Shown in pieces: positions 2,253-62,509 of a DNA stretch of 64,000 nt (the first letter of the stretch is position 1; every line of letters begins with the position of its first letter). The notes under the pieces were generated by a model. It was not told where the DNA came from and ran no database searches. It saw only the letters and a program-made list of their open reading frames with translations. This DNA comes from Ianthella basta (lineage: Eukaryota; Porifera; Demospongiae; Verongiida; Ianthellidae), in the NCBI GenBank assembly GCA_964019415.1, contig OZ025888.1, positions 4,357,536 through 4,421,535 of the forward strand, read 5' to 3'. Both the position numbers and the translations under genes were made by a program.

Positions 2253-4444
2253 CCACTCAACCAATGCCCCATGTGAGTGTCCAGAACACTATGTGGACCT
2301 TCACATCACCAGATAGCAGCCAAGTGGAGGAATATATTGTAGAGTTTGAGTGCAGTGTACGAAACAACACATTTGTAGAAAAGTACATGCGTGTCAGTGC
2401 TAATAGTGGAGGAATTGGACGAGTAGCAAGAAATGCATCCTGTTTTGGAGGACTAGGCCAGCTCTACAGAGTGAAGGTGTGGTCAGTTAGTGGACACAAC
2501 ATCAGTCAACAGCCAGCAGTGAGATGTCTTACACCAGATGGGCAATGCAGAGAAGGTAGGAGATGCACAAGGACAAGTAGTGCTTCTGACTTGTTGTGGA
2601 ATGGTTCACATGTTTTCAAAGTAAAGTGTCAAGTTTGCAATGAATGTACCATAATAATGTAGTGTACCATAAATTGACCAACATTACCACTAGTGATGAT
2701 TACACCAACAACTGTAGATAGCAGAGGAACTCCAACTCCAACAGCAGTGGTTACTACATCAGAAATGGCAGACCTGTCATATTCCCATTCACCTGGATCA
2801 CAAGGTTAGCACTACTGTACATTCATCTGGATTGTAGATCACGTGTAGATATAATGCAATTAGTGTTCATACACTGACGGAATTTTTTATGCTTAATGCA
2901 GGGCCTTTAACTTATACGTATTAATTAAATGTTTCCCCATGTACACTTGCGAACAGATGCTTTATGGAACTTATACGTGCAATTAATCTGTTTTTACTAA
3001 TTGTAGCTTTTGCATTAAGTTTGATATTGCTGAGGAATTGTCAAGAAAAGAGAACACCAATCCTGCCAGCTAATTGAGATACTAGAGAGAGGAGAAAGTG
3101 CCTTACAGTATATTGGCCATTGATGAGTCCTATGATTCTGAAAAATCACTTTAGAATAATATGGCAGTGGCACAGAATCCATCATTCTGTCTAGTGCCAA
3201 TAGTGTTAGTTGCCAGCTCACCTTGCTTCTGTGCACGTGTTAATGCCACTCTCAAGAAATTTTGGAATGGACACTTGCTTCATGCTCAATCTAAGGCTCT
3301 TCCTCATACATGATAGTCTCCTTACTGCAGTATTATTGAAGATTAATAAGACAGTCACTCCATGCAATTGCATTGTCTCGAGTCGAAACCCACTAAAACC
3401 AATTGCACATGCATAGACATTACAACTAATTAGATGCTGGAAATGGCAAAATACACATAATTCAAAGAGAACAGTAGGATGACATCATGACCTATATCCA
3501 TGGAGGACTATTCATGGTGGTTGTTCACAATCCTCAGCATTTGGTGTAATTTTGTATATCTACATTTAATTCTTCAGGAGGAGATTGCGAACAGACAAAC
3601 AAACACTCGTGCACTACTGAGGAATAAAGAAACTTATGCACTTAGAATAATATAACAATATTAACCATTCAAATTGCAGTATGCCTCTCTCCTACTCTTG
3701 CATACACTGTTACGTGAAGTCACTGAAGTGCACCCATCCATGTACTTCTAACCTGGGTCTTGTCGTTCTTGATTTCTTCTGCATTTAGGTGCAGCAGTTG
3801 GCACATTCATAGGAGCAGGGATTGGTATTGGTGTGTTCCTCCTCCTTTCTGTGTTGACCCTGGTGGCCATAATCTTGGTAGTAGTGGTGGTGAGGAGGAA
3901 GGTAACTTATAAGCAGAAAGAAAGGTCAAAGATGGAACAAAGACTTAGTCCATTCTTCAGCAATGCATTAGTGGCTAAGCCAGACAATGAGATGGAAGAG
4001 AAAGGTCTAAGTGCTGGTCATATCTATGTAAATGAGGGAATAGGTGTCAGTGAAATTGATAGCAAGGTGCCAAACAAAATTGTAATGAAACAAGCACCAA
4101 AAGAATCCTCCACTCTAGTCAGTGTGACCAACATTGGGGATCTGTATGCTGTTGTGGACAAGAGCCAGAAGAAAGGGGCAGAGAAGGAGAAAGAAACTGT
4201 CACAAACAAAGAAGATCTGTATGCCATGCCAATGAAGAAGAAAGGCAAGTTGTCAGAGAGAGGTGAGGGAGTGGTGGACAGTGGGGGTGTGGAAAATGGA
4301 GGAGAGTATGATGATATGGCAGGGGTCATGTATGAGCCAAAGGCTGACAGTGAGTCTGTGCAGCAGATTGAAGGAGACAGCAAGGCTCCAAATGTTGTTG
4401 TGCTCTATGCAGTTGTGGATAAGAGTCATAAGAAGAAACAGTGA
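2253..4444 (+). CDS. Receptor 1 (tail B), 5'-incomplete
   Basis: Three exons of the receptor family are present: FN3-like (2253-2555), stalk (2694-2804) and TM plus long tail (3789-4444). All junctions are phase 1 and GT-AG. No signal or Ig exon is visible upstream; the gypsy remnant lies there instead, so the gene is either truncated or has its 5' exons outside the window. The FN3 exon starts A-T-Q-P-M-P-H-V, the form otherwise paired with the beta-type Ig2. The TM helix lies at about 3800-3890, followed by R-R-K. Tail tyrosines include G-D-L-Y-A-V-V, D-L-Y-A-M-P, V-M-Y-E-P and the C-terminal V-V-L-Y-A-V-V, which fits the ITIM consensus. Whether it is expressed is unknown. Confidence 0.75.
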
Positions 4445-6220
4445 AATCTTACTTCCCTTCCATAGCACTATCGTTTCAGGTAACCGGTATATACATGTGT
4501 GCAAATTACAGTAACTCATAGTTTACCTTATCTCAGTCAATCAATTACTTAGTGTGATGCTGAACTCATTCAATCATTAGCAACATTTGCATGTGCTCGA
4601 TGGGGCAGGAGAAGAGAGACGATGATACTGAATCTACATACAATTGATACTTGAATTGCTTGAACATCTTTGCCTTCAAAAGAGAGGGTGACAGCTAGGC
4701 CCATTAGTGCACTGTCATTGTAGAGTTTACTGGTAGTAACTATAATTATGCGTACAGACAGTCTAATAACAAATGAAGACCACTGTGGCCAAATCCTCCT
4801 GCTGTCTTTGTTCTGCTTACCATGCAAAGTACGTATGTACACAGAATCAATTTCTACACTCTATAGCTACTTTTTGACACTCCTTCACGCCTAGTGCATT
4901 GCATGGTGCATGTATATATAGTAGTGTTTCACTGCACAAACACATGCACACATACAAAGGATATTGTGCTGTTGCTTGCCATCACTTAGGAATTAAGCCA
5001 CTTAATTGCAAGAATATACACGTTCTGCGGGCTCTCAGTCAGTGCATGCCTCCTCAGCGCACAGTCTATTTTAATACTATTGTACACACATGGATACTAT
5101 ACGTAGCTAGGACTTAGGAGGCCACTTCCAAATAAGGGCACACATTACACTGTAGAAGTCCCCCAAGTGGCACACTCACTCATTAGCAAGCACAAGTACA
5201 CCTGTGCTGCTTATGCACATTACATGCATAATTTTGAAATTGAGCTGAGAGAGAAAATGACTATGCGTACCAATAATAAGACACTATTGTATCAGAGAGT
5301 ACATGTCAGAGGAAAGTGAGAAATCTTTCATACACACACCAGGAAGCAAGGCACAGCGGAACCCTTTCATGGCTGCACAGTTTGTGGTGGCACATCAATG
5401 GAAGTTCTGAAGCTAGGTACCTTGCACCTACATAACCTATTATTCTACTAGACCACATCAAACAGGCCAAAAGCTAGGAGTGGTTCATACCAAAGTTGTC
5501 AACATGACCACCTCCAGTGCAATAATTACATTATGTTTGGAACAACACAGTAATTTGAACAGGATGCAAAGAAGGCATGGAATTTAATTACCTACATAAT
5601 ACATACAGAAACATACCATCCCGTTGAAATTAACATTGAAGTATGTACATAATAGAAATGCCAGCCCTCAGATAATTCGCACATTGCATGTATATTATAC
5701 ACCTCACATCCTGCTCGGCAATGGAAATAATTTAAAGGTGCGTATGTCTAACACCAGACTACCGCATACCCATATTTGGACTGTGGATAATAGATGGAAT
5801 GAAGGGAGTGCTGCTGACACTATGTCACAGGTTAAATAACTTTTGAAGTAATGGACACCGTACAGTATTATGTATTCGCCCTTAGCGATGTGCATTCCAG
5901 GTGAATGAATGCCTATATTAGAGTTACATTCCATGGTGAACCAACTAATGGATATGATGATGATATATTGTCATATGCACTGATCCAATTGTGAAGAGGT
6001 ATGCAAGTAAACAGACAATGACAAGCATACAATAAATTCCTAACATGATAGGTGTTTGTGGCTATGGTCCATTAGGAAGCCACTAGCAAACATGGGCAAA
6101 CTGTCACAAGCCATTAAGTGGCTTTCATGCCCTTAGTGTCTTCAATACCATAGTGTACAGCAGTATCATGCAGAGGAGGGCATGCAATAACTCAATACTC
6201 AACTTTAAAAAGTTCTAACA
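4445..6220. other. Intergenic, no gene seen
   Basis: This stretch has no supported gene. It contains one copy of the dispersed element with inverted CCACTT and AAGTGG motifs (about 5117-5185). Near 6060-6220 lies a receptor-type upstream module (AGGAAGCCACTAG, then CCATTAAGTGG) that precedes the pseudogene signal exon. Short frames here have no family resemblance. Confidence 0.6.
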
Positions 6221-6930
6221 ATGAAGGTGCTGTCGGTTCTACAGATACTCATCACAGCCATTCTCTGAACAGGTAGGAGGGGCTTAGGAGTGATTGCTAG
6301 GGATAGAGGGAGTTGAGGAGTTATTGTGTGGTACCATCCACATGACTCACAGGAGAGGCAACTGTTAAGGTGAAAATCAGGGTTTCAATGCTAGCAGTGA
6401 GCTGGGCATCTAGTCAGGAAGAACAATCAGTATTGGCAGTTTCACACGTTGTTAAGGTGACAGTACTAGTTGGGGCTTACTGCTGTCCGTGAACTGGACA
6501 TTGAGGCAATAAATACAATCCACATACTATTAGACAGCTTCACATGCTAGTGGAAAACTCTACACTGAGTCAGGAAGAACAATCAGTATTGGCAGCTTCA
6601 CACTGGGAACAAGAGTTCTTCTGACCTGTGATGTGACAGGACTACCTGAGGGGAGTGAGGTGATCAGCTACAAGTGGTACCACAACTGTACCCAAGTGAG
6701 GTGGGAGATACAAGATAGAGCCCCCTACTACAGAGCAGAGAATGACATTCGATTGCTCATGCTTCAGAGGACTTTGCCAGCTCTACAGAGTGTGCGTGTG
6801 GGCAGTTAGTGGACACAACATCAGTCAACAGCCAGCAGTGAAGTGTCTTACACCAGATGGGCAATGCAGGGAAGGTAGGAGGTGCACAAGCAATGTAGTG
6901 TTTCTGACTTGCTCTGAGAATGGCTAACAT
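6221..6930 (+). pseudogene. Receptor pseudogene with triplicated variable patch
   Basis: A recognisable signal exon (6221-6272) carries an in-frame TGA three codons before its donor. The Ig1 exon starts at 6353 after a normal acceptor. It then holds three successive versions of the same N-terminal variable segment (about 6391-6447, 6448-6545, 6546-6606) before the conserved L-L-T-C core. The core breaks off at about 6745 and is fused directly to the second half of an FN3 exon (about 6770-6875). The intervening intron, Ig2 exon and FN3 first half are missing. No TM exon follows. It cannot encode a normal receptor; it is a relic or a sequence donor. Confidence 0.8.
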
Positions 6931-7615: not shown

Positions 7616-8993
7616 ATGAAACTGCTGTTGTTTCTACTGGGACTCATCACAGCCAGTCTCCAAACAGGTAGGAAGGGGCTTAGGAGTGATTGCTAGGGAT
7701 AGAGGGAGTTGAGGAGTTATTGTGTGGTACCATCCACATGACTCACAGGAGAGGCAGCTGTTATGGTGAAGATCAGGGCTTACAATACTAGTGGTGAACT
7801 GGATATAGAGGCAATACATCCCAAACAGACAGCTTCACACTGGGAACAAGAGTTCTTCTGACCTGTGATATGACAGGACTACCTGAGGGGAGTGAGGTGA
7901 TCAGCTACAAGTGGACCACAAGTGCAATCAAATGGGGTGTATGGTACAAGAGATAGAAGAGGGAACCCCCTACTACAGAGCAGTGGCTGACACTCTATTG
8001 GTGGATGTCACTTCTCATGATTTGGGAGGAATATATGTACTATTGTGAAAATGAGTACCACAATTAACAAAGCTTAAGCATGAGAGGTTTCACATCAAAA
8101 ATCAGTGTAACAGGTTATAGTGAGCACATACAGTAGGCTGAAATCATAATCTGTGCTGTTCTACTGTATGTCTACATTCTGCATATCCTCTGCATTTTTA
8201 TATCCTCTGCTATTCTGCCCCAACTCTACATTATTTAGCTAGCCCTGGTCCATTCCTCTTCACACCAACCTCCCTCCTCCTCAACCACTCCCTCATCACT
8301 GATGCACAACAGGTAAGTGGAAGCAATGCACAGAAGTGGATCAACTGCACCAATGGGGGAATCAAAGGCCAGTACAAATAAACTCTGTAGCAAAGAAAAA
8401 CCAAACTGCAATAAGTAGTAGTAACATTGTTGGAAGTAATTATAAGCTGAACGGCTACACTAGCAATGGACTCTTAATCTTGCTTTACAAAACCACCAAA
8501 TTACTAGCTTTAGTTGTCAATTTATATACTTGAAGAACTCAAGTAAGCAAACTTGTACTGTCAACTAATAATCACTCATACACAAACATTGTAGCCAAAA
8601 ATTGGATGCACTTCATCATTGATTTGTTTCTTCTATATATTCTTCTTATATCTACCGGTGCTCAATATAAGCACCCAGAACTGCACCAAGAACACTATGT
8701 GGACCTTCATGTCATGAAATGGCAGCCAAGTGGAGAGATATACTGTAGAGATTGAGTGCAGAGTACGAAACATCACATTTGTAGAGAAGTACACGAGTGT
8801 CATTGCTAATAGTGGAGGAACTGGACGAGTAGCAAGAAATGTATCATGTTTTGGAGGAGTAGGCAAGCTCTTCAGAGTGAAGGTGTGGGCAGTTAGTGGA
8901 CACAACATCAGTCAACAGCCAGCAGTGAGATGTCTTACACCAGATGGGCAATGTAGAGAAGGTAGGGGAGGCACAAGGAATGTAGTGTTCTGA
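7616..8993 (+). pseudogene. Receptor pseudogene, beta-type Ig2
   Basis: The signal exon 7616-7667 is intact and ends at a GT donor. The Ig1 exon (7749-8113) has lost two bases at the conserved Trp-Tyr site near 7912 and has other indels plus an in-frame TAA late in the domain. A degenerate beta-type Ig2 (about 8240-8535) follows. The FN3 region (about 8690-8962) has TGA in place of the conserved S-P-D turn near 8718, although its second half remains open. No stalk or TM exon follows before the next gene. It is closest in structure to the genes at 27883 and 60461. Confidence 0.8.
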
Positions 8994-11147: not shown

Positions 11148-13450
11148 ATGGAGGTGCTGTTGGTTCTACTGGGGCTCATCACAGCCAGTCTCCAAACAGG
11201 TAAGAGGGGTTTAGGAGTGGTTGCTAGGGATAGAGGGAGTTGAGGAGTTATTGTGTGGTACCATCCACATGACTCACAGGAGGGGCAGCTGTTATGGTGA
11301 AGATCAGGGCTTACAATGCTAGTGGAAAACTCTACACTGAGTCAGGAAGAACAATCAGTATAGCCAGCTTCACACTGGGAACAAGAGTTCTTCTGACCTG
11401 TGATGTGACAGGACTACCTGAGGGGAGTGAGGTGATCAGCTACAAGTGGTACCACAACTGCACTCAAGTGAGGTGTGAGATACAAGAGGGAATCCCCTAC
11501 CTCAGAGTAGTGGCTGACACTCTATTGGTGGATGTCACTTCCCATGATTTGGGAGGGAGGTACTTTTGTGATGCTGAGTATGGCAATGAACAGAGCATGA
11601 GAGGTCACACATCACCATTCAGTGTAACAGGTTAGTGAGTTCATCAAACAATAATTATGTAGGTCTGGATGACAACATTGTTTGGACTGTTCTACTCCAC
11701 ATCTATGTTCTGCAGATAACCCTGGTCCATTCCTGTTTACCCCCAACTCCCTCCTCCTTGAGAACACTCTTATTACTGACCTACAACAGATAACAGGAAA
11801 TGGACAACAGATTATAACCTGTTCAGATGAGAGAGGAGATATATTCCGAGAGGGAAGTACACTGCCATTAGATACAAAAGGAAGCATTTCACCATCAAAA
11901 ATTCAAATAAATGGATTATACCTATGCTGGAGTGGTCCAAACAAGAGGATCTACTTTAATGTGTTCACCAAGAACTTGAGTAAGTTCATATGTAGGACTG
12001 GTGCAAAGATGCATGAATACTGTGTGTCAAACAGTTTATGCATGCACACATGATTTAGAATTCACATATAGTGTACATAAGAACTCCTTTCCACAGCTGC
12101 CCTGCCTACACCAATCATACACACCACTGCTGGAGAGTGGATCTTCAGAACACCAGAAAGTGGACGGAAGAGATATATTGTAGAGCTTGAGTGCATAGTA
12201 CGAAAAATCACATTTGTAGAGAAGTACATGAGTGTCAGTGCTAATAGTGGAGGAATTGGACGAGTAGCAAGAGATGTATCATGTTTTGGAGGACTAGGCC
12301 AGCTCTACAGAGTGAAGGTGTGGTCAGTTAGTGGACATAACATCAGTCAACAGCCAGCAGTGAGATGTCTTACACCAGATGGGCGATGCAGAGAAGGTAG
12401 GGGAGGCATGCGAAGAAATGTGGTGTTCTGACTTGCTGCAGGATTGGCTCTGAGTAAGGGTATGGTTGGCATTTGTATATTTCCAGTTACTGCTCTAGTG
12501 CATAATTATGGAGTTACTATAATACTTTGTATATTTCAAAAATCATGCTATGCATCTTCCAGTTATTGACGGATTTGGTTCACTGACCTCTAATAATGGA
12601 ATTTGAGTTCTCTGTCATTACAGCAGCTTTGTACCTTGCACATACTCTAGCTATTGCAAGTCACTGTGTACTGTTCCATGTAGCAATTAAGTTAACCTGG
12701 GTATGGGAAGGTATACAGTGTAACATGTATTTATACACTCCTGCCATTGTTCAAATGTCCAAGTTCACAATTGGTACTGAGTGCAATGATTATGATCATG
12801 TGCATTAGATGGACCAACTACAAGCACAGTGATGAGTACACTATCAACTGCAGGCAGCAGATCTAGAGAAAGTCCAACTCCAACAATAGTGGCTACCACA
12901 TCAGCAATGACTGACTTGTCACCACTGTCACCCTCCTTACCAAATGGACAACAAGGTTAGTGCCTAATGAAAACTGAGGTATGATATGCCTAAACACTAA
13001 ACACAAAGCATTATAGGAATGAAATCACACCTATTAGATAGATTTGACGAAACTCTAGTGAAATCAATCCAAGGTGAGTCTTTGTAGCCATTTCGGACAT
13101 TTTGGCCTTTGTGGTCTTTGTCATTACTTCCTTTCATAGGTACTTTATCAACAGTGCTGCCAATATCCATTGGTGTACTAATGGTTCTTGTGGGCATAGC
13201 CACATTCACTGCTGGTGTGGTGATGCTGGTAAGAGCCAATCACAGGAGGGTACTGGACCACTCCCCCATGCCACCTCCTCCTGGGACTGATCACTATGAG
13301 GTGGTGGATGAAGGGAAGAAGAGTACACCTCTTGGTGCAGGGGTCTACGAGGAGGTAGACAAGCAGGACACAGAGGGACACAACAAGCACTATCAGGAGC
13401 TGGACCTGATGAAGGTGGAGGGGAATGAATATGCATCCGTGAAAGCTTAA
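11148..13450 (+). CDS. Receptor 3, intact Ig-Ig-FN3 receptor, tail A
   Basis: Exons: 11148-11199 signal peptide, 11280-11630 Ig1, 11716-11979 Ig2, 12097-12396 FN3-like, 12809-12955 stalk, 13140-13450 TM and tail. They join into 474 residues with five phase-1 GT-AG introns. Ig1 (18-134) has L-T-C, Y-K-W-Y-H, and D-L-G-G-R-Y-F-C, plus an extra Cys pair in the C-C' region. Ig2 (135-222) keeps its cysteines but lacks the core Trp. The FN3-like domain is 223-322 and the Ser/Thr/Pro stalk 323-371. The TM helix is at about 376-402, and tail tyrosines are in H-Y-E-V-V, V-Y-E-E-V, H-Y-Q-E-L and N-E-Y-A-S-V; the last has Asn where paralogues have Ser. Sequons occur in Ig1 and FN3. It is probably a cell-surface recognition receptor; the ligand is unknown. 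Confidence 0.85.
12442..12569 (+). other. Possible alternative terminal exon of receptor 3
   Basis: After an acceptor-like TTGCTGCAG, a phase-1 frame opens with hydrophobic residues (L-A-L-S-K-G-M-V-G-I-C-I-F) and stops after 42 codons. Used instead of the stalk and tail exons, it would give a receptor ending in a short membrane segment without tyrosine motifs. Equivalent open frames occur in receptors 10 and 13. No transcript supports it. Confidence 0.35.
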
Positions 13451-16791: not shown

Positions 16792-19442
16792 ATGAAGGTG
16801 CTATTGGTTCTACTGGGACTCATCAGAGCCAGTCTCCAAACAGATAGGAGGGGCTTAGGAGTGATTGCTAGTGATAGAGGGAGTTGAGGAGTTATTGTGT
16901 GGTACCATCCACATGACTCACAGGAGAGGCAGCTGTTATGGTGAAGATCAGAGCTTACAATGCCAGTGGTGCACTCTACACTGACTCAGGAAGAACAATC
17001 AGAATAGCCAGCTTCACACTGGGAACAAGAGTTCTTCTGACCTGTGATGTGACAGGACTACCTGAGGGGAGTGAGGTGATCAGATACAAGTGGTACCACA
17101 ACTGCACTGGAGCAATGTGTGAGATACAAGAGGGAGCCCCCTACTACAGAGCAGTGGCTGACACTCTATTGGTGGATGTCACTTCCCATGATTTGGGAGG
17201 GAGGTACTATTGTGATGCTGAGTATGGCAGTAAACAGAGCATGAGAGGTTTCACATCAGCAATCAGTGTGACAGGTTAGTGAGTGCATCAAACATAATTG
17301 AGTAGGTCTGGGTGACAACATTGCTCGGACTGTTCCACTCTACATCTATGTTCTGCAGATAGCCCTGGTCCATTCCTGTCTACTCCCAATTCCCTCCTCG
17401 TTGAGAACACTCTTATTACTGATCTACAACAGATAACAGAAAATGGACAACAGAGTATAACCTGTGGAGGTGGGCAGGGAAGGATATTCCGACAGGAAAC
17501 TGTAGACGAAGTGGTTGGTGGAGGGAGCGTTTCACAACAGCATCTTCGTACAAATGGACATTATTTTTGCTTGGGCCACTCAATGAAGAGGATCTACTTT
17601 AATATTTTCACCAACAACTTCAGTGAGTCCATTACACATGCAGGGGGTGCAAAGGTGTACACGTGTCCTGAAAGTGAAGCATATACACCTTTCCACAGCT
17701 TCCCTGCCTACACCAATCATACATACCAGTGCTGGAGTGTGGACCTTCACATCACCAGATGGCAGCCAAGTGGAGAGATACATTGTAGAGTTTGAGTGTA
17801 GTGTACAAAACATCTCATTTGTAGAGAAGTACGTGAGTGTCAGTGCTAATAGTGGAGGAACTGGACGAGTAGCAAAAGATGCATCATGTTTTGGAGGACT
17901 AGGCCAGCTCTACAGAGTGAAGGTGTGGGCAGTTAGTGGACGCAACATCAGTCAGCAGCCTGCAGTGAAGTGTGTTACACCAGATGGGCAATGTAACGAA
18001 GGCACGTAGGATGCATGCATGGACATGTTGTGTTTCTAACCCACTGTATAATGATTAGCATGGTCTTATATAAAATACAGCAACAGCTATTATTTTACTA
18101 ATAATGTATACATATACAATAGCAATATAATCCATGTGATTCTAATACCAACAATTGTAGGGAGCAGAGGAACTCCAACTCCAACAACAGTGGCTACCAC
18201 TTCATCAAAGCCTGACCTGTCACCTTCCACATCAGGTGGATTACAAGGTAAACACTGATGTCTTGACAGTTGATCACCTGTAGGCACATAGCCAATATAC
18301 AGTGTTAAATATGTACGTATGTACACTTGGTAGGGGAACTGACACGACTGTCGTGTCAGTTATTGTACCAATTGAGAAAGGTCCTCGGACTGAAACGTCC
18401 TGGAAATCAATTGAAGTTGATGTACTGCTTACAATGATCAATTACATCCTGTGCACTAGGTGGGTCAACTACAAAGCCAGTGATGTTTACACCTACATCT
18501 GTAGGTAGCAGAGAAACTCCAACTCCAACGGTAATGGCTACCAGATCAACAGTGACTCACTTGTTACCCTCCACACCAAGTGCACCAAAAGGTTAGCAGT
18601 AATACTGATTTGCAGTACGTATGTCTTTCACAATTCTGTGGCATGCACATTACCTAATATGTACACTTGTTCAATCATGTGAGTGCTTGCTTCCTGTACG
18701 AGCAAGCCATGTGATGCATGCCCTAATCAAAGTCTGATGTCTTCACTCCCATCATGTAGGTGCCCTGTCAAAAACTGGCACATTCATTGGAGTGGGGGTT
18801 GGTGTAGGTGTGTTCCTCCTCCTTTCAGTGTTGACCCTGGTGGGCATAATCTTGGTAGTAGTGGTGGTGAGGAGGAAGGTAACTTATAAGCAGAAAAGAG
18901 ACTCAGAGATGGAACACAATGCACTGGTGGCCAAGCAAGAGCATGAGGTGGAAGAGAAAGGTCTAAGTGCTGGCCATGACTATAATTATGTAGATGAGAA
19001 AGAGAGAAAAGTCAAGACTGTTGATGGGTTTGATCTATATGAAGATGTTGTTGGCAAGACACAGATCAAAGCTACATTGAAACAAGCACCAAAAGAATCC
19101 TCCACTCCAGTCAGTGTGACCAACATTGGGGATCTGTATGCAGTTGTGGACAAGAGCCAGAAGAAAGGGGCAAAGAAGGAGAAAGAAACAGTCACAAACA
19201 AAGAAGATCTGTATACCATACCAATGAGGAAGAAAGGCAAGTTGACAGAGAGAGGGGAGGGAGTGGTGGAGAGTGGGGGTGTGGAAATGGAAGAAGAGAA
19301 TGTCAATATGGCAGGGGTCATGTATGAGCCAAAGGCAGATAGTGAGTCTGTGCAGCAGATTGAAGGAGACAGCAAGGTTCTGAATGTTGACATGCTCTAT
19401 GCAGTTGTGGATAAGAGTCGTAAAAAGAAAAATGAGAAGTGA
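16792..19442 (+). CDS. Receptor 4 (tail B), unusual splice donors
   Basis: Exons: 16792-16843 signal, 16924-17274 Ig1, 17359-17622 Ig2, 17699-18001 FN3, 18161-18247 stalk 1, 18460-18591 stalk 2, 18760-19442 TM and tail. They give 623 residues in one frame if all are spliced. The first donor is AT instead of GT at 16844, and the donor after FN3 is GC (18002), a tolerated variant. Ig1 keeps L-T-C, W-Y-H and Y-Y-C; the variable part reads A-L-Y-T-D-S-G-R. The tail has Y-N-Y-V-D, D-L-Y-E-D-V, G-D-L-Y-A-V-V, D-L-Y-T-I-P, V-M-Y-E-P and M-L-Y-A-V-V. No coding exon has a stop. If the AT donor is not used, the gene is silent or needs another first exon. Confidence 0.7.
18337..18361. repeat. Short perfect palindrome in receptor 4 intron
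   Basis: Arms AACTGACACGAC and GTCGTGTCAGTT are separated by one base. The same palindrome is kept in the matching intron of the pseudogene at 44442 (about 45991-46014), next to the same ribozyme-like relic. Confidence 0.7.
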
Positions 19443-40714: not shown

Positions 40715-43179
40715 ATGAAGGTGCTGTTGGTTCTACTTGGACTCATCACAGCCAGTCTCCAAACAGGTAGGAGGGGTTTATAGGAGTGATTGCTAGGGAT
40801 CAAGGGAGTTGAGGAGTTATTGTGCGCTACCATCCACATGACTCACAGGAGAGGCAGCCGTTGAGGTGAAGATCAGAGCTTACAATGCTAGTGGAGATCT
40901 CTACACTGAGTCAGGAAGAACAATCAGTATAGCCAGCTTCAAACTGGGAACAAGAGTTCTTCTGACCTGTGATGTGACAGGACTACCTGAGGGGAGTGAG
41001 GTGATCAGATACACGTGGTACCACAAGTGCAATCAAATGGGGTGTATGGTACAAGAGATACAAGAGGGAACCCCCTACTACAGAGCAGTGGATGACACTC
41101 TATTGGTGGATGTCACTTCCCATGATTTGGGAGGGAGGTACTATTGTGAAGCTGAATATGGCAATGAACAGAGCATGAGAGGTTTCACATCAACAATCAG
41201 TGTAACAGGTTAGTGAGTTCATCAAACATAATTATGTAGGTCTGGATGACAACATTGTTTGGACTGTTCCACTCTACATCTATATGTCCTGCAGATAGCC
41301 CTGGTCCCTTCCTGTTTACCCCCAACTCCCTCCTCCTTGAGAACACTCTCATTACTGACCTACAACAGATAACAGGAAATGGACAAAAGAGTATAACCTG
41401 TGCAGGTGTGCAGCAGGGAAGGATATTCCGACAGGAATCCACAGACCAAGTGGTTGGCGAAGAGAGCATTTCACAACAGCATCTTCATACAAATGGACAT
41501 TATTATTGCTTGGGCCACTCAATGAAGAGGATCTACTTTAATATTTTCACCAACAATTTCAGTGAGTCCATTACACATGTAGGGGATGCAAAGGTGTACA
41601 CATGTCCTAAAAGTGAAGCATATACACCTTTCCACAGCTGCCCTACCTACACCAATCATACACACCAGTGCTGGAGAGTGGACCTTCACATCACCAGATG
41701 GCAGCCAAGTGGAGAGATATATTGTAGAATTTGAGTGTAGTGTACGAAGCATTACATTTGTAGAGACGTACATGAGTGTCAGTGCTACTAGTGAAGGAAG
41801 TGGACGAGTAGCAAGAGATGTATCATGTTTTGGAGGAGTAGGCCAGCTCTACAGAGTGAAGGTGTGGGCAGTTAGTGGACACAACATCAGTCAACAGCCT
41901 GCAGTGAAGTGTCTTACACCAGATGGGCAATGCAAGGAAGGTAGGGGAGGCATATACAGAGGTGTTCTGACTTGCTGCAGGACTGGCTATTAGTGTGGGT
42001 ATGATCGGCATCTGCATATTTTCAGTTACTGCTCTAATGCATATTAGTTACTGAAATTTGAATATTTCGATAATCATGCCAGAATCATCTTCCTGGGCCA
42101 GTTATTGACTGGTATGGTTCACTGACCTCCAATGATGGAATTTGACCTCCCTGTCATTACAGCAGCTTTGTACCTTGCATATACTCTAGTTATAGTCACA
42201 GTGTACTGTTCCATAATTATGCAGTTATTATGCTAATCTGGTGTAGGTATAATTATATGCGCTACTGCCATTGTTCAACTGTCCATGTTCACAGTTTTAT
42301 GATTTACGTATCTATCACCGAACTTCACTAGCCAAAACTTTGAATAAAACCAAATGTTTCGACAACTATACAGTTGTCATCGTCAGTGTCAGTGCATAGT
42401 TGTCGAAACGTTTGGTTTTATTCAAAGTTTTGGCTAGTGAAGTTCAGTGATAGATACGTATGTCAGTACCTAGCCACACAGGATTTTTCGCAGTTTTATG
42501 ATTGCATTGAATGTTGTCATGTGCACTAGATGGACCAACAACAAGCACAGTGATGAATACACCAACAACTGTAGGCAGCAGATCTAGAGGAAGTCCAACT
42601 CCAACAATAGTGGCTACCACATCAGCAATGGCCGAGTTGACTGACTTGCCACCACTGTCACCGTCCTTACCAAATGGACAACAAGGTTAGTGACTAATGA
42701 ATACTGAGGTATGATAACATTATGCCTGAATAACTTAGTACAAAGTATTATAGGAATGAAAGTACACATATGTAATGGATAGATTTGAGGAAACTCAAGT
42801 GAAATCTTTCCAAGGTGAGTCTTTGTAGCCATTTTGTCCTTTGTGGTCTTTGTCATTACTTCCTTTCATAGGTACGTTATCAACAGTGCTGCCAATATCC
42901 ATTGGTGCACTAATGGTTCTTGTGGGCATAGCCACATTCACTGCTGGTGTGGTGATGTTGGTGAGAGCCAATCACAGGAGGGTACTGGACCACTCCCCCA
43001 AGCCACCTCCTGGGACTGATCACTATGAGGTGGTGGATGAAGGGAAGAAGAGCACACCTCTTGGTACAGGGGTCTACGAGGAGATAGACAAGCAGGACAC
43101 AGAGCGACACAACAAGCTCTATCAGGAGCTAGACCTGATGAAGGTGGAGGGGAGCGAGTATGCATCCATGAAAGCTTAA
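40715..43179 (+). CDS. Receptor 10, intact, tail A
   Basis: Exons: 40715-40766 signal, 40849-41208 Ig1, 41295-41561 Ig2, 41638-41940 FN3, 42530-42685 stalk, 42872-43179 TM and tail; 481 residues, all introns GT-AG and phase 1. Ig1 combines a D-L-Y-T-E-S-G-R variable start with the longer K-C-N-Q-M-G-C-M-V-Q-E loop. The stalk is slightly longer than in receptor 3. The tail lacks one Pro of the P-P-P-P run and has H-Y-E-V-V, V-Y-E-E-I, L-Y-Q-E-L and S-E-Y-A-S-M. The intron between FN3 and stalk contains a ribozyme-like inverted repeat and a possible alternative terminal exon. The 3' UTR carries a long palindrome. It is one of the best-preserved copies. Confidence 0.85.
41981..42054 (+). other. 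Possible alternative terminal exon of receptor 10
   Basis: After CTTGCTGCAG, a phase-1 frame of 24 codons reads as one hydrophobic segment (L-A-I-S-V-G-M-I-G-I-C-I-F-S-V-T-A-L-M) and then stops. It would end the receptor at or just after the membrane with no signalling tail. Confidence 0.4.
42306..42459. repeat. Inverted repeat with ribozyme-like core
   Basis: Arms of about 60-65 bases, starting at ACGTATCTATCAC and ending at GTGATAGATACGT, flank a short centre. On the minus strand CTGACGA (42386 to 42380) is followed by a GACAAC/GTTGTC stem and GAAAC (42360 to 42356), again hammerhead order. The plus arm has GAAACG but no CTGANGA. The base after GAAAC is A rather than G, so the minus core may be weak. 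Confidence 0.6.
42356..42386 (-). ncRNA. Hammerhead-like ribozyme core, variant
   Basis: CTGACGA fits the CTGANGA core. A six-base stem, GACAAC with GTTGTC, precedes GAAAC. Stem III would be poor. It lies in a receptor 10 intron within a large inverted repeat. Confidence 0.35.
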
Positions 43180-44441: not shown

Positions 44442-47400
44442 ATGAAGGTGCCGTTGGTTTTACTGGTGTTACTGGGACTTATCACAGCCAGTCTCCAAAC
44501 AGGTAGGAAGGTTGGTTGAGAGTGACTGCCTGAGAGGGAGGGAGGGGGGAGTGATTGTTGGTTCTATACCATCCACATGACTCACAGGAGAGGCAGCTGT
44601 TACGGTGAAGATCAGAGCTTACAATGCTAGTGGAAAACTCTACACTGAGTCAAGAAGAAGAATCAGTGTAACCAGCTTTATACTGGGAACAAGAGTTCTT
44701 CTGACCTGTGATGTGACAGGACTACCTGAGGGGAGTGAGGTGATCAGATACAAGTGGTACCACAAGTGCCCTCAAATGGAGTGTATGGTACAAGAGATAC
44801 AAGAGGAAACCCCCTACTACAGAGCAGTGGATGACACTCTATTGGTGGATGTCACTTCCCATGATTTGGGAGGGAGGTACTATTGTGATGCTGAGTATGG
44901 CAATGAACAAGAGAGTTTTCACATCAGCAATCAGTGTAACAGGTTAGTGAGTTCATCAAACATAATTATGTAGGTCTGGATGACAGCATTGTTTGGACTG
45001 TTCCACTCTACATCTATGTTCTGCAGATAGCCCTGGTCCATTCCTGTTTACCCCAAACTCCCTCCTCCTTTAGAACACTCTTATTACTGACCTACAGCAG
45101 ACAATAACCTGTGGAGGTGGGCAGGGAAGGATATTCCGAGAGAAACCCACAGAATAAGTTGGTGGAGGGAGCGTTTCACAACAGCATCTTCATACAAATA
45201 GACATTATTATTGCTTGGGCCACTCAATGAAGAGGATCTACTTTAATATTTTCACCAACAACTTCAGTGAGTCTACTACACATGCAGGGGATGCACGGGT
45301 GTACACGTGTCCTAAAAGTGAAGTATACACACCTTTCCACAGCTGCCCTGCCTACACCAATCATACACACCAGTGCTGGAGTGTGGACCTTCACATCACC
45401 AGATGGCAGCCAAGTGGAGAGATTTATTGTGGAATTTGAGTGTAGTGTACAAAACATTACATTTGTAGAGAAGTACTTGAGTGTCAGTGCTAATAGTGGA
45501 AGAACTGGACAAGTAGCAAGAGATGTGTCATGTTTTGGAGGACTAGGCCAGCTCTACAGAGTGAAGGTGTGGGCAGTTAGTGGACACAACATCAGTCAAC
45601 AGCCAGCAGTGAGATGTCTTATACCAGATGGACAATGTAATGAAGGTACGTAGGATGCACACATGGACATGTTGTGTTTCTAACCCACTGTATAATTATA
45701 ATGATTAGCATGGTCTTAAATACAACATCTGCTAATGCTTTATTAATAATGTATGCTACATATACAATAAAAGGACCAGCAATATAATCCGCGTGATGCT
45801 AATACCAACAACGGTAGGTGGCAGAGGAAATCCAAATCCAACAACAGCAGCTACCACTTCATCAAAGCCTGACCTGTCCCCCTCTGCATCAGGTAGGTCA
45901 CAAGGTTAACACTGTCTTGATTGTAGATCACATGTAGGCACATGGCAAATATACAATGTTAAATATGTATGTATGTACACTTGGTAGGGGAACTGACACG
46001 ACTGTCGTGTCAGTCATTGTACCAATTGAGAAAGGTCCTGGAAATTAATTGAAGTTGATTCGAAAGTTGAGTTGAAGTTAAATAAAGTTGATCCATTCGC
46101 TGCGCGTACGCTCAGAAACTTTTCTCCTACCATTGCCCTACTCAACAATGAACCTATACTGCATCATATGTACACTTGTCTACAAATTCTCTTCTAAATG
46201 GAGGTGATATTCTGCCCATTTATACACTTGCTTGCAGATGGTTTATAAAGTGGAGATACTAGAAGGTGAAAGTGGATTAGACTGGGAATATATGAATCCT
46301 ATAGGCCGGGTCTGAAACAAATCTTTTTGAGCAATTTCACTTGCTGACAGTAGAAATGGCAGTAGCACATGCAGAAGCCTATAACCTCTGAGATCCCACA
46401 TGTTGTCATAATTAGTCTTGAAAGTGACAATGCTCACATCATCCTTTGTCATATATCTGAACGTTCGCAGCCATTTACACAAGATGGCTGCATTTTGATG
46501 ACACTGTATAGCTAGCATGTTCACAGTGTTACTGATTGCAATGATCAATTACATCCTGTGCACTAAGTGGATCAACTACAAAGCCAGTGATGTTTACACC
46601 TACATCTGTAGATAGCAGAGAAACTCCACCTTCAACTGTAATGGCTACTAGGTCAACAATGACTCACTTGGTACCCTCCACACCAAATACTCCAAAAGGT
46701 TAATAGCAGTAATACTTATTTGTATCTTTCACAATTCTGTGGCATCCACATTAAATTACCTGATGTGTGCATTCATTTAATCTGTGAGTGCTTGCTTCCT
46801 GTACCAACAAACCGTGTGGTGCATGCCCTAATCAAAGTCTCATGTCTTCACTCCCTACATGTAGGTGCTCTGTCAGAAACTGGCACATTCATAGGAGTTA
46901 GGGTTGGTGCAGGTGTGTTCCTCCTCCTTTCAGTGTTGACCCTGGTGGCCATAATCTTGGTAGCAGTGGTGGTGAGGAGGAAGGTAACTTATAATCAGAA
47001 AGGTGACTCAAAAATGGAACACTATGCAATGGTGGCTACGCAAGAACATGAGGTGGAAGAGAAAGGTCTAGGTGCTAGTCATAGCTATGATCATGTAGAT
47101 AAGAAAGAGAGAAAAGTCGAGACTGTCGATGATTTTGATCCATATGATCCATATGATGATGTCAATGGCAAGACACAGATCAAAACAGCAATGAAACAAG
47201 CACCAAAAGAATCCTCCACTCCAGTCAGTGTGACCAACATTGGGGATCTGTATGCAGTTGTGGACAAGAGCCAGAAGAAAAGGGCAGAGAAACAGAAAGA
47301 AACAGTCACAAACAAAGAAGATTTGTATGCCATGCCAGTGAAGAAGAAAGGCAAGTTAACAGAGAGAGGGGAAGGAGTGGTGAAGAGTGCAGAAACAGGA

Positions 47401-47550
47401 GAGAAAAATAACGACATGGCAGGGGTCATGTATGAAACAAAGGCAGACAGTGAGTCTGTGCAGCAGATTGAAGAAGACAGCAAGGCTCAGAATGTCGACA
47501 TGCTCTATGCAGTCGTGGATAAGAGTCATAAGAAGGTAAAAGAGAAGTGA
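44442..47550 (+). pseudogene. Receptor 11 pseudogene (tail B, tail exon intact)
   Basis: Exons: 44442-44502 signal (three codons longer than usual), 44588-44942 Ig1, 45027-45266 Ig2, 45343-45645 FN3, 45818-45904 stalk 1, 46567-46698 stalk 2, 46865-47550 TM and tail. Ig1 has lost five bases near 44910 (frameshift). Ig2 has in-frame TAG at 45071 and TAA at 45155 and a 24-base shortening. The stalk 2 acceptor reads AA instead of AG. The TM-tail exon is fully open with all six tyrosine motifs. The TAG is identical to that of receptor 8. It cannot make the full receptor. Confidence 0.85.
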
Positions 47551-50880: not shown

Positions 50881-50905
50881 AGGCAGCAGATCTACAGAAA
50901 GTCAA
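49355..50905 (-). pseudogene. LINE ORF2 endonuclease end and reverse transcriptase
   Basis: The open part 49487-50905 encodes the end of an apurinic endonuclease (S-D-H-Y-L-V), a basic linker with W-K-E-H-F, and reverse transcriptase motifs: I-I-P-I-F-K-K-G, N-Y-R-G-I-S-L-L, G-F-R-A-G-R, A-F-V-N-L-E-K-A-Y-D and R-Q-G-C. Motif A has Asn where the first catalytic Asp is expected. An extra T near 49535 shifts the frame, after which motif C reads F-A-E-D instead of F-A-D-D (about 49460). The first codons, up to about 50880, may derive from the flanking receptor sequence. Confidence 0.8.
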
Positions 50906-51354
50906 ACTCCAACAATAGTGGCTACCACATCAGCAATGGCTGATGTATTGGATAGATTTGAGGAAACTCTAGTAAATCTGTCCAAGGTGAGTCTTTGTAG
51001 CCATTTTGGCTTTTGTGGTCTTTGCCATTACTTCCTTTCATAGGTACTTTGTCAACAGTGCTGCCAATATCCATTGGTGTACTAATGGTTCTTGTGGGCA
51101 TAGTCACATTCACTGCTGGTGTGGTGATGCTGGTAAGAGCCAATCACAGGAGGGTACTGGACCACTCCCCCAAGCCACCTCCTCCTGGGACTGATCACTA
51201 TGAGGTGGTGGATGAAGGGAGAAGAGCACACCTCTTGGTGCAGGGGGTCTACGAGGAGGTAGACAAGCAGGACACAGAGGGACACAACAAGCACTATCAG
51301 GAGCTGGACCTGATGAAGGTGGAGGGGAGCGAGTATGCATCTGTGAAAGCTTAA
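50880..51354 (+). pseudogene. Receptor 12: orphan stalk remnant and tail-A exon
   Basis: A stalk exon fragment (about 50880-50946) abuts the LINE and has also lost its 3' half and donor. The TM-tail exon 51044-51354 is complete, with a good acceptor. In it, a one-base loss near 51231 is compensated by a one-base gain near 51246. Nine residues between H-Y-E-V-V and V-Y-E-E-V are thus changed, but all four tyrosine motifs stay in frame. No signal, Ig or FN3 exon remains; they probably vanished with the LINE insertion or a deletion. Confidence 0.8.
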
Positions 51355-54765: not shown

Positions 54766-56891
54766 ATGAAGGTACTGTTGATTCTACTGGGACTCATCAC
54801 AGCCAGTCTCCAAACAGGTAAGAGGGGCTTAGGAGTGATTGCTAGGGATAGAGGGAGTTGAGGAGTTATTGTGTGGTACCATTCACATGACTCACAGGAG
54901 AGGCAACTGTTATGGTGAAGATCAGGGCTTACAATGCTAGTGGAAAACTCTACACTGAGTCAGGAAGAATATTCAGTATAGCCAGCTTCACACTGGGAAC
55001 AAGAGTTCTTCTGACCTGTGATGTGGCAGGACTACCTGAGGGGAGTGAGGTGATCAGCTACAAGTGGTACCACAAGTGCCCTCAAATGGGGTGTATGATA
55101 CAAGAGATACAAGAGGGAACCCCCTACTACAGAGCAGTGGATGACACTCTATTGGTGGATGTCACTTCCCATTATTTGGAAGGGAGGTACTATTGTGATG
55201 CTGAGTACGGCAATGAACAGAGCATGAGAGGTTTCACATCAACAATCAGTGTAACAGGTTAGTGAGTTCATCAAACATAATTACGTATGTAGGTCTGGAT
55301 GGCAGCATTGTTTGGACTGTTTCACTCTACATCTATGTTCTGCAGATAGCCCTGGTCCATTCCTGTTTAACCCCAATTCCCTCCTTCTTGAGAACACTCT
55401 TATTAGTGACCTACAACAGATAACAGGAAATGGACAACAGAGTATAACCTGTGGAGGTGGGCATGGAAGGATATTCCGACAGGAATCTGTAGACCAAGTT
55501 GTTGGCAGAGGGAGGATTTCACAGCAACAGCTTCATACAAATGGACATTATTATTGCTTGGGCCACTCAATGAAGAGGATCTACTTTAATATTTTCACTA
55601 ACACATTCAGTGAGTCCATTACACATGTAGAGGATGCAAAGGTGTACACTTGTCCTAAAAGTGAAGCATATACACCTTTCCACAGCTTCCCTGCCTACAC
55701 CAATCATACACACCAGTACTGGAGTGTGGACCTTCACATCACCAGATGGCAGCCAAGTGGAGAGATTTATTGTAGAATTTGAGTGCAGTGTACGAAGCAT
55801 TACATTTGTAGAGAAATACATGAGTGTCATGTCCAATGGTGAAAGAATTGGAAGAATAGCAAGAAATGTATCATGTTTTGGAGGACTAGGCCAGCACTAC
55901 AGAGTGAAGGTGTGGGCAGTTAGTGAACACAACATCAGTCGACAGCCAGCAGTGAGATGTCTTACACAAGATTGGCGATGTAGAGAAGGTAGGGGAGGCA
56001 TGCAAAGACATGTTTTGTTCTGATCTACTGCAGAATTGGCTCTGAGTATAGGAATAGTCAGCATCTGTGTATTCTCTGTCATTACAGCAACTTTGTACCT
56101 TGCATATATTCTAGCTATAGCTCAAGACGTGGTGTGCTGCTCCATGTAGCAAGTCATGCAACATTCATTCCTACCACTGTTCAAATGTCCATGCAAGTTC
56201 ACAGCTTTACTGAATGCAATGAATGTCATCATGACATTGTACATTAGATGGACCAACAACAAGCACAGTGATGATTACACCAACAACCGTAGGTAGCAGA
56301 TCTAGAGGAAGTCCAACTCCAACATTAATGGTTTCCACATCAGCAACGACTGATTTGCCACCCTTGTCACCCTCCTCACCAAATGGACAACAAGGTTAGT
56401 GCCTAATGAATACTGTGTGAGGTATGATAGCATTATGCCTAGAATCATTCAATACAAAGCATTACAGAATAAAAACACACCTATATGGATAGATTTCAGA
56501 AAGTCTAGTGAAATCTATCCAAGGTGAGTTTTTATAGTCATTTTGGCCTTTGTGGTCTTTGTCACTACTTCTTTTCATAGGTACTTTATCAACAGTGCTG
56601 CCAATATCCATTGGTGTACTAATGGTTGTTGTGGGCATAGCCACATTCACTGCTGGTGTGGTGATGTTGGTGAGAGCCAATCACAGGAGGGTACTGGACC
56701 ACTCCCCCAAGCCACCTCCTCCTGGGACTGATCACTATGAGGTGGTGGATGAAGGGAAGAAGAGCACACCTCTTGGTGCAGGGGTCTACGAGGAGGTAGA
56801 CAAGCAAGACACAGAGGGACACAACAAGCACTATCAGGATCTGGACCTGATGAAGGTGGAGAGGAGCGAGTATGCATCCATGAAAGCTTGA
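54766..56891 (+). CDS. Receptor 13, intact, tail A
   Basis: Exons: 54766-54817 signal, 54898-55257 Ig1, 55346-55609 Ig2, 55686-55988 FN3, 56248-56394 stalk, 56581-56891 TM and tail; 478 residues, all introns GT-AG and phase 1. Ig1 joins a K-L-Y-T-E-S-G-R start with a K-C-P-Q-M-G-C-M-I-Q-E loop. The FN3 end is unusual (C-L-T-Q-D-W-R-C). The tail has all four tyrosine motifs and ends in TGA, not TAA. The 5' flank matches that of receptor 4 and the 3' flank that of receptor 5, so the gene may be a product of unequal crossing-over. An alternative hydrophobic terminal exon follows FN3. Confidence 0.85.
56034..56149 (+). other. Possible alternative terminal exon of receptor 13
   Basis: After CTACTGCAG a phase-1 frame of 38 codons reads L-A-L-S-I-G-I-V-S-I-C-V-F and continues as a long helix (L-Y-L-A-Y-I-L-A-I-A), ending V-V-C-C-S-M. 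It looks like a full TM segment with a very short tail bearing two cysteines. In receptors 3 and 10 the corresponding sequence is interrupted by about 130 bases. Confidence 0.45.
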
Positions 56892-57745: not shown

Positions 57746-57986
57746 AATGAAGAAGTAACACAGGTTGACAGGGAGAGGGAAGAGAGTGGTGGAGTAGATG
57801 GTGGTGTGGAAAAGGAAGAAGAATATGACAACAGGAGAGAGGTGAAGTATGAGTCAAAGGCAGACAGTGAGTCTGTGCAGCAAATTGAAGGAGACAGCAA
57901 GGCTCCAAATGATATTGAGACAGCAAGGCTCCAAATGTTGACATGCTCTATCCAGTATTGGATACAAGTCATAAGAAGAGAAAGTG
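57746..57986 (+). pseudogene. Relic 3' part of a tail-B exon, second copy
   Basis: Sister of 25182-25396 with the same early TAA. It also has a 26-base tandem duplication around GACAGCAAGGCTCCAAATG (about 57890-57935), which shifts the final L-Y-A-V-V frame. Confidence 0.7.
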
Positions 57987-60460: not shown

Positions 60461-62509
60461 ATGAAGGTGTTGGTGGTTCTACTGGGACTCATCACAGCCA
60501 GTCTCCAAACAGGTAGGAAGGGGCTTAGGAGTGATTGCTAGAGATAGAGGGAGTTGAGGAGTTATATTGTGTGGTACCATCCACATGACTCACAGGAGAG
60601 GCAACTGTTATGGTGAAGATCAGGGCTTACAATGCTAGCAGTGAACTGGACATTGAGTCAATAAATACACAATATAGCGCCAGTCTCACACTGGGAACTA
60701 GAGTTCTTCTGACCTGTGATGTGACAGGACTACCTGAGGGAAGTGAGATAATTAGATACAAGTGGTACCACAAGTGCACTCAAATGAGGTGTGAGATACA
60801 AGAGGGTACCCCCTACTACAGGGTAGTGGATGACACTCTATTATTGGATGTCATTTCCCAGGATATGAGAGGGAGGTACATTTGTGAAGCTGAGTACCAC
60901 TATGAACAAAGCATGAGTGATTTTGCATCAATAAGAATCAATATTGCAAGTGAGTACATCAGATATAACATGAATGGAGAACAAATTCTCAGTCTGTACT
61001 GTTCTACTGTATATCAGTCTACATTCTGCAGATAGCCCTGGTCCATTCCTCTTCACATCAACCTCCCTCCTCCTCAACCACTCCCTCATCATTGATACAC
61101 ATCCGGTAGATAGAATGGAAAGCCAAAAGTGGATTAACTGCACCAGTGGGAGGAATTGGGGAGTACCAGTAATATTCTCTGATGTAGATCAAATGGCTGT
61201 TGCATCAAGTCGAGGTGGTAGTAACACTGCCACAAGTGAGCTGACCAGTTACACTACCAATGGGCTCTACTATTGCAGCTCAAACGTACGAAAGGCCTAC
61301 TTCTCAGTTTACTCAATGAACTTTGGTAAGTGAGTTGAAGTTGCTACTTACTTCCGAAACACTCTCGCATTATAGACAAAGACATGATGTATATGTACCT
61401 ATATAGTTTACTTTGAGCTGATTATGCATATATCCATTCTTCTAGCCACTCTACCAATGCCCCATGTAAGTGTCCAGAACACTATGTGGACCTTCACATC
61501 ACCAGATGGCAGCCAAGTGGAGAGATATATTGTAGAGTTTGAGTGTAGTGTACGAAACATCACATTTGTAGGGAAGTACATGAGTGTCAGTGCTAATAGC
61601 GGAGGAACTGGACAAGTAGCAAGAAATGTATCATGTTTTGGAGGACTAGGCCAGCTCTACAGAGTGAAGGTGTGGGCAGTTAGTGGACACAACATCAGTC
61701 AACAGCCAGCAGTGAGATGTCTTACACCAGATGGGCAGTGCAAGGAAGGTAGGAAAGCAAGCAAAGGTATGCGGTGTTCTGACCTGCTGCAGGAATGGTT
61801 CCGAGGGTATGGTTGGCATCTGCTTATTTTCCAGTTACTGCTCTAATTCATACATAATTATTGAGTCACAGTATGTTTATATATTCAATAATCATGCTAT
61901 GCATCTTCCAGTTATTGACTGATTTGGTTCACTGACCTCCAACGGTGGAATTTACAATCCCTGTCATTACAGCAGCTTTGTACCTTGCACGTATTCTAGC
62001 TATAGCTCAAGTTGCAGTGTACTGTTCCATGTACTATAGCAATTAGGTTAACCTGCTGAAGGTATAATTATAAAATATACTCCTGCCATTGTTCAATCAC
62101 ACCTATTGGATACATTTGAGCAAGCCCTAGTGAAATCTATCCAAGGTGAGTCTTTGTAGCTATTTTGCCTGTGATTTTGTCATTGCTTCATTTCATAGGT
62201 ACTTTATCAACAGTGCTACCAATATCCATTGGTGCACTATTGGCTCTTGTGGGCATAGCCACATTCACTGCTGGTGTGGTGATGTTGGTAATAGCCAATC
62301 ACAGGAGGGTACTGGACCACTCCCCCAAGCCACCTCCTCCTGGGACTGATCACTATGAGGTGGTGGATGAAGGGAAGAAGAGCACACCTCTTGGTGCAGG
62401 GGTCTACGAGGAGGTAGACAAGTGGGACACAGAGGGAAACAACAAGCACTATCAGGAGCTGGACCTGATGAAGGTGGAGGGGAGCGAGTGTGCATCTGTG
62501 AAAGCTTAA
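60461..62509 (+). CDS. Receptor 15, beta-type Ig2, tail A, stalk deleted
   Basis: Exons: 60461-60512 signal, 60596-60949 Ig1, 61032-61325 Ig2, 61446-61748 FN3, 62199-62509 TM and tail; 437 residues, all phase 1 and GT-AG. Ig1 is the most divergent intact one: its end reads D-F-A-S-I-R-I-N-I instead of F-T-S-A-I-S-V-T. Ig2 is beta type with Q-K-W-I-N-C and L-Y-Y-C. Compared with receptor 7, the spacer that held the stalk exon is deleted near 62097. The TM helix has V-M-L-V-I-A-N-H, and the tail has H-Y-E-V-V, V-Y-E-E-V, H-Y-Q-E-L and a last S-E-C-A-S-V in which Tyr is replaced by Cys, so the ITIM-like site is lost. Confidence 0.8.

Follow-up and report, generated by a model that had tools for sequence, protein, structure and literature searches.

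The stretch of 64,000 nucleotides from the sponge Ianthella basta analysed here (the window: C21:4357536-4421535, + strand, C21 being contig OZ025888.1 of assembly GCA_964019415.1) carries a tandemly repeated gene family, whose predicted products join a common ectodomain to one of two tyrosine-rich cytoplasmic tails, termed A and B. The best explanation, to which about an even chance is given, is a family of type I surface receptors amplified in tandem, paired-receptor-like in its organization and with two phosphotyrosine outputs. This explanation is favoured because of the arrays, the exon structure, the two tails, the lack of association between ectodomain and tail, and the tighter constraint on the tails of C21. 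An immune or self-recognition role may be proposed by analogy with other receptor clusters.

Extent and exon structure of the arrays

An earlier note on the window, made from its letters alone, had claimed at least thirteen head-to-tail paralogues on one strand. Searches with tblastn of exon translations over the window, together with exon fitting, bear this out with 15 full or partial units, all on the + strand, from U1 at 2253 to U15 from 63486, the E-values going down to 1e-113. Signal exons were matched 11 times by tblastn and a twelfth time, in U11, by exon fitting; Ig1 is present, whole or broken, in 12 units, and FN3 exons number 13. The two alternative, interspersed tails of that note are also confirmed, in the form of 8 tail-A units and 4 long tail-B matches, to which 2 tail-B relics (25209 and 57800) are added.

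The exons follow the order signal, Ig1, "Ig2", "FN3", stalk and a last exon that encodes both the transmembrane segment and the tail, and all introns are in phase 1. When reference exons were fitted to the individual units, the signal exon came out at 52 bases (61 in U11), the Ig1 exon at 351-360 bases in most units, the Ig2 exon at 240-304 bases and the FN3 exon at 297-303 bases in most units. The shared exon set described in the earlier note holds insofar as splice positions are common to the window units; the stalks, however, vary (one exon in U4, U8, U10 and U13, two in U5 and U11, none in U14), and only five of the 15 units pass a strict test, which requires an uninterrupted reading between ATG and stop codon as well as usable splice sites. 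Complete proteins can be read from three of them, U4, U10 and U13, all introns of which have canonical splice sites; the same applies to U7 and U14, except that the stalk is left out. The same structure recurs in relatives: L069 (C9), L070 (C8) and L076 (C23) have the four ectodomain exons with AG/GT borders in phase 1, while L073 and L074 have signal, Ig1 and Ig2 exons of the same kind, an FN3 candidate not having been found in L074. Chance can be excluded because of the E-values, to 1e-113, and the recurrence of the exon structure in the C23, C8 and C9 relatives. It is mainly because this structure is kept at an Ig1 identity of 48-62% in those relatives that the models are taken as probable genes.

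The assembly (209 Mb in 96 contigs) was searched with tail A, tail B, Ig1 and FN3 translations in order to map the family. The window falls within a head-to-tail array on the + strand of about 270 kb (C21 4.239-4.509 Mb), which continues past both window ends. At a distance of 0.4 Mb lies a second, inverted array of about 190 kb on the minus strand (C21 3.629-3.821 Mb); a smaller array is found on C23 (2.82-2.93 Mb), and single diverged copies on C8 (about 6.497 Mb) and C9 (about 1.906 Mb), with an extra tail-B piece on C8 at 6.471 Mb. Tail A has 52 matches in the genome, 50 of them on C21, and tail B has 49, of which 37 are on C21. With fragments excluded, C21 holds 43 tail-A exons and 32 tail-B exons; the tail-A set further included 6 fragments, one second piece being dropped, and the tail-B set 3 fragments, two overlapping pieces being dropped. 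FN3 matches amount to 82 in the genome and 69 on C21 (68 of those used), and 71 C21 places were used for Ig1, the count of which is a lower bound since 150 of 286 candidates were scored. The idea that the two C21 clusters are unmerged haplotypes was rejected, as no near-identical partners occur: in a comparison of 36 FN3 exons, the highest score-based identity is 95.4% between the clusters and 95.7% over all pairs.

Ectodomains, tails and their combination

The Ig1 module is firmly assigned, by profile matching, as an immunoglobulin (Ig) domain, Pfam Ig_2 and Ig_3 matching in 16 of 16 members, so the family belongs to the immunoglobulin superfamily. Its profile matches are mostly adhesion proteins (MDGA1 at 1e-12, DSCAM, contactins and NCAM). 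The rest of the Ig-Ig-FN3 order put forward in the earlier note is not established. Ig2 comprises two classes, a and b, about 28-38% identical to one another within the window, and is characterized by a short Cys-Cys span and an NG-x-Y-x-C motif. Pfam Ig was matched in one of 16 members (E 0.14), profile matches in the PDB are weak (best 0.0079), comparison with Ig1 by hhalign gives 2%, and the structural model is of low confidence (predicted local distance difference test, pLDDT, 62.6), for which no fold match reaches E 0.001. For FN3, there is no Pfam FN3 match in 17 members and no match in the PDB by sequence, and comparison by hhalign with FN3 domains of the same genome gives 0.1%. One fold model has seven strands at a pLDDT of 71.5, the other four lying at 33-51. 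The structures most similar to it are for the larger part FN3 domains but include pectate lyases, and no match reaches E 0.001. In spite of the negative sequence tests, the FN3 label is provisionally kept because of this seven-strand model and its mostly FN3 structural matches.

The Ig1 exon has relatives in a much more extensive Ig family: a search with the C8 query L083 returned at least 152 related Ig-exon matches, scores having been computed for 150 of the 424 candidates. Among the matches listed, most lie at C8 6.26-7.66 Mb (6260000-7655000), and others on C16, C3, C4 and C20. L083 itself combines an Ig1-like exon (40% identity) with a second exon containing an ITDLQQI stretch, as in Ig2.

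Tail motifs were compared in 28 stop-free long copies of tail A (three rows with stops were dropped) and in 24 copies of tail B from C21, C23, C8 and C9. Tail A has four closely spaced tyrosines of the YxxV/L/M type, kept in 28, 28, 28 and 27 of the 28 copies. In tail B three widely spaced tyrosines are kept in every copy and the other six in 71-83%; two of the constant ones stand in YAVV-type sites (43 YxVV matches in the 24 copies) and the third mostly in a site of the LY[AST]MP type. The YxxV/L units of tail A are spaced 13, 11 and 9 residues apart, near the spacing of the immunoreceptor tyrosine-based activation motif (ITAM), and a relaxed form of that spacing is found in 28/28 copies of A and 5/24 of B. 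Several motifs separate the tails almost completely: YE[EV][VI] (28/28 A, 0/24 B), PxxP (27/28 A, 1/24 B) and YxN (0/28 A, 22/24 B). The docking sites offered by the two tails would thus differ, because their motif contents differ. Both tails end in stop codons and show no Pfam kinase match, so the definition of a receptor tyrosine kinase does not fit. No kinase match was found within the C21 arrays among 130 scored of 2397 candidates (PF07714). The genome contains 70 SH2 matches (99 of 99 candidates scored), seven of which, on C4, have a kinase match on the same strand no more than about 150 bases away, an order that appears to be like that of Src-family kinases.

Near-equal ectodomains are found on the two different tails, as in paired receptors. 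An FN3 exon could be tied to a tail at 37 of 60 tail loci (20 A and 17 B, one of the latter on C23), the 23 others being left out as having no long enough FN3 in the stretch examined; ten relatives were added to the tree as context. When mapped on this FN3 tree, the tail label has to change 15 times, compared to shuffled means of 15.4 (A) and 14.1 (B), and the well-supported branches alone force 4 and 5 tail-label changes. Similarly, the classes of Ig2 are distributed over the tails of 27 C21 loci as 9 aA, 2 aB, 9 bA and 7 bB (Fisher P 0.23). No association between tail type and ectodomain was found. The Ig2 class goes largely with the cluster, because the minus-strand cluster is entirely of class b (14 of 14) and the plus-strand cluster mostly of class a (11 a, 2 b). 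The tails of the minus-strand cluster, 16 A and 13 B, alternate (23 runs vs a shuffled mean of 15.3, P 0.003), and those of the plus-strand cluster, 27 A and 19 B, do not (25 runs vs 23.3, P 0.36).

Recombination between tail types is visible because two copies are chimeras: U6 has tail-B-type stalks ahead of a tail A, and the C23 copy L071 (2414-2803) has an open-frame last exon in which the membrane part of tail B is followed by the cytoplasmic part of tail A. Tail B is probably the older type, because it is carried by the single C8 and C9 copies. The notion of matched A/B neighbour pairs was dropped, adjacent FN3 exons being no more alike than random pairs. At three places tail A follows tail B at 2.3-2.6 kb with no ectodomain match between them; the use of alternative last exons by one ectodomain was rejected, as L035 and L037, the two of these three places that were inspected, lack the beginning of the membrane part and resemble relics.

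The ratio of nonsynonymous to synonymous substitution rates (dN/dS), with intervals from a codon bootstrap, was estimated on stop-free C21 exons, the tail-B set including one C23 copy. It is 1.03 for Ig1 (0.67-1.65; 10 copies, nine from the window), 0.74 for Ig2a (0.51-1.06; n=8), 0.82 for Ig2b (0.55-1.22; n=7) and 0.76 for FN3 (0.56-1.06; n=33), compared to 0.47 for tail A (0.32-0.68; n=27) and 0.55 for tail B (0.47-0.67; n=23). Replacement changes are clustered within the C21 exons of Ig1, Ig2a, Ig2b and FN3 (permutation P 0.001 or less) and within the tails too (P 0.022 and 0.005). The C21 pattern fits a looser or diversifying evolution of the ectodomain compared to conserved tails, as far as sequences can indicate.

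Explanations and known receptor systems

As a tandemly amplified receptor family with two outputs, the genes would encode a diversifying common ectodomain, in which Ig1 and two additional small domains sit on a stalk rich in Ser, Thr and Pro, and each gene would join this ectodomain to one of two last exons containing the transmembrane segment and cytoplasmic tail. When a surface ligand is bound, the receptor may cluster, whereupon a kinase of the Src type could phosphorylate the tail and SH2 proteins could dock. Tail A, with its ITAM-like spacing and YE[EV][VI] sites, would provide one output, which is guessed to be activating, and tail B another, such that one recognition repertoire might feed two outputs. 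The likeliest ligands would be self/non-self or microbial surface molecules.

Several observations weigh against this explanation. The folds of Ig2 and FN3 are weakly supported and not proven. Conservation of the tyrosine columns is just slightly above that of the remaining tail columns (0.99 vs 0.92 in A, 0.84 vs 0.77 in B), and strict motifs are sparse, with strict ITAM in 7/28 copies of A and 0/24 of B, and the strict form of the immunoreceptor tyrosine-based inhibition motif (ITIM) in 13/28 and 5/24. Ten of the 15 units in the window are damaged or incomplete, namely eight that are broken or truncated (U1, U2, U3, U5, U6, U8, U9 and U11), the lone tail U12, and U15, which is cut by the window end; all four window tail-B units fail the strict test. 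The FN3 similarity of adjacent genes is not raised (12 pairs, P 0.10; 7 pairs, P 0.78). On C23 the dN/dS values (Ig1 0.71, Ig2 0.62, FN3 0.58, tail B 0.69) show no contrast between ectodomain and tail, and the codon ratios of C21 do not demonstrate positive selection, since the ectodomain intervals include 1.

A more far-reaching form of the receptor explanation, to be entertained tentatively, is an independently evolved, germline-combinatorial paired-receptor system, in which ectodomains would be freely exchanged between two self-sufficient phosphotyrosine tails with opposed self/non-self outputs, the arrays being inverted and one of them having a single ectodomain class. Somewhat doubtful is the alternative that the genes encode adhesion molecules for contact with tissue or matrix, the tails linking to different cytoskeletal or sorting partners and the copies multiplying by neutral birth and death, without recognition of non-self. 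The adhesion proteins that dominate the Ig1 profile matches speak for it, as do sorting-type YxxPhi sites, found in 28/28 copies of tail A and 24/24 of tail B, and a loose constraint would also bring the ectodomain dN/dS near 1; in our judgement, however, dozens of copies and two conserved tyrosine tails across two Ig2 classes exceed the needs of plain adhesion.

The products might instead recognize microbes or symbionts directly, as pattern-recognition receptors with tails that tune the response and with self not involved. The clustered expansion and the concentration of replacement changes in parts of the C21 ectodomain exons would suit such an unlikely role, yet the tails show clustered replacement changes likewise. 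That the array is mostly dead and decaying, with no present function, is highly improbable: the many damaged window units, and the reverse-transcriptase element and integrase frame inside the array, are what it would predict, but C21 tail matches are mostly stop-free, C21 tails are under constraint, and the exons are kept in relatives on other contigs. If the receptor explanation is true, the family would add further clustered Ig receptors with alternative tyrosine tails to the tunicate, hydroid and vertebrate cases, and the exchange between ectodomains and tails could be read directly from the genome. The window gives a defined locus at which allorecognition or immune genetics could be tested, with the larger C8 Ig array of the same genome for comparison.

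The likeness to paired-receptor and allorecognition clusters that the earlier note had suggested stands for the layout, and no sequence test placed the genes in the Alr or leukocyte-receptor families. In vertebrate paired receptors one partner usually signals via an adaptor through a charged membrane segment, whereas in the present family each tail is equipped with tyrosines of its own, and no charge was seen inside the membrane segment of either tail by sequence reading. In the 28 copies of A and 24 of B, the two tails are not set apart by a canonical ITIM on one and an ITAM or a charged membrane segment on the other.

Vertebrate paired receptors of the FcR/KIR/LILR kind, and XFL of Xenopus, resemble the present family in that ectodomains of a similar kind are attached to differing membrane and tail parts; XFL consists of at least 75 genes with YxxV/L/I tail motifs, domain shuffling and species-specific expansion (PMC2413239). 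The fester co-receptor (FcoR) genes at the fuhc locus of Botryllus schlosseri are likewise clustered, multigene Ig type I receptors with YxxI/L/V core motifs, and some of the loci can swap signalling motifs (PMC12065747). The domains of FcoRs are one V-type Ig, one sushi and two Ig of the C2 type, and ITIM or hemITAM occurs in some of these receptors (PMC12065747), whereas here no sushi match appeared in Pfam scans and the two tails lie on separate gene copies. Alr of Hydractinia, a 41-member Ig family in the allorecognition complex, is also a tandem receptor family of a non-vertebrate; the likeness, compared by description, concerns the layout only, as Alr has V-set and I-set domains, and an allorecognition role is proven for Alr1/Alr2 (PMC11999971). 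For sponges, a genome paper describes 6 genes that combine TIR with Ig (PMC12909245), and Ig receptors, as well as an Ig-bearing receptor tyrosine kinase, are described from Geodia cydonium, which shares with the present family the possession of Ig receptors in an early-branching animal (PMC12018476, PMC11999971). The arrangement found here was not described in the titles and abstract starts of open-licence papers in PubMed Central, searched without the organism name.

In the PDB, the Ig1 profile matches 8ovq ('Cell recognition molecule, long form', E 0.0015) and 8qpx ('Receptor tyrosine kinase (Fragment)', E 0.0028), both presumably Geodia proteins. These are weak, generic Ig matches ranking below many adhesion proteins, and the present tails are without a kinase domain.

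Units of the window and other genomic features

The reference unit is U13 (54766..56891), intact and with tail A, the exons of which lie at 54766-54817, 54898-55257, 55346-55609, 55686-55988, 56293-56394 and 56581-56891. Two further intact tail-A units are U4 (11148..13450; exons 11148-11199, 11280-11630, 11716-11979, 12097-12396, 12854-12955 and 13140-13450), with an open reading and canonical splice sites, and U10 (40715..43179; exons 40715-40766, 40849-41208, 41295-41561, 41638-41940, 42575-42685 and 42872-43179). Class b of Ig2 is combined with tail A in U7 (27883..31099; exons 27883-27934, 28015-28374, 29253-29546, 29733-30032 and 30789-31099), readable when its damaged stalk exon is skipped, and in U14 (60461..62509; exons 60461-60512, 60596-60949, 61032-61325, 61446-61748 and 62199-62509), readable without a stalk and with Cys replacing the fourth tail tyrosine.

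Among the tail-B units, U1 (2253..4451) is a truncated copy with FN3 at 2253-2555, a stalk at 2718-2804 and tail B from 3789 to about 4446, Ig1 and Ig2 not having been found in it by tblastn and exon fitting. U5 (16792..19442) has an open frame, stalk exons at 18161-18247 and 18505-18591 and tail B at 18760-19442, with altered donors of the signal exon (AT) and the FN3 exon (GC); U9 (35931..38570) also has an open frame, with one stalk exon found and the AG of the tail acceptor altered; and U11 (44442..47550) is a pseudogene with an altered Ig1 exon length and a stop in Ig2. The chimera U6 (21898..24343), its tail-B-type stalk exons at 23306 and 23673, has an open frame and altered donors of Ig2 and the first stalk exon. 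Further pseudogenes are U2 (6221..6879; a stop in the signal exon, Ig1 fused to an FN3 remnant), U3 (7616..8966; signal, frameshifted Ig1, partial Ig2 of class b and FN3, no tail) and the tail-A unit U8 (32238..34399; frameshifts in Ig1 and tail, a stop in Ig2). U12 (50883..51354) consists of a cut stalk and a tail-A exon (51044-51354) without ectodomain, and U15 (63486..63578) is an Ig2 class-b exon piece near the window end, with a tail A downstream of it, beyond the window, at C21:4422290.

The tail-B relics lie at 25209-25391, downstream of U6, and at 57800-57981, downstream of U13, and are traces of exchange or of deleted neighbours. The orphan tail U12 adjoins a reverse-transcriptase frame on the minus strand (48770-50929; Pfam RVT_1 3.1e-22), and a frame with a weak Pfam integrase match (437-1813, + strand) lies upstream of the truncated U1. 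A WD40-repeat fragment between U4 and U5 (14551-14850; Pfam 1.7e-7) seemingly belongs to a duplicated spacer; similar-looking frames near 20405-21030 have no Pfam match.

Elsewhere in the genome, strong FN3 domains stand in tandem at C12:1688000-1713300, several of them at a period of about 375 bases. Cathepsin-L-like genes at C6:3129550-3135966, some with Ser at the expected catalytic Cys, are 38-39% identical to a silicatein stretch, the query being an approximate sequence. Dense clusters of kinase-like domains (PF07714) at C3 10.90-13.33 Mb and C11 0.22-1.34 Mb represent another expanded family.

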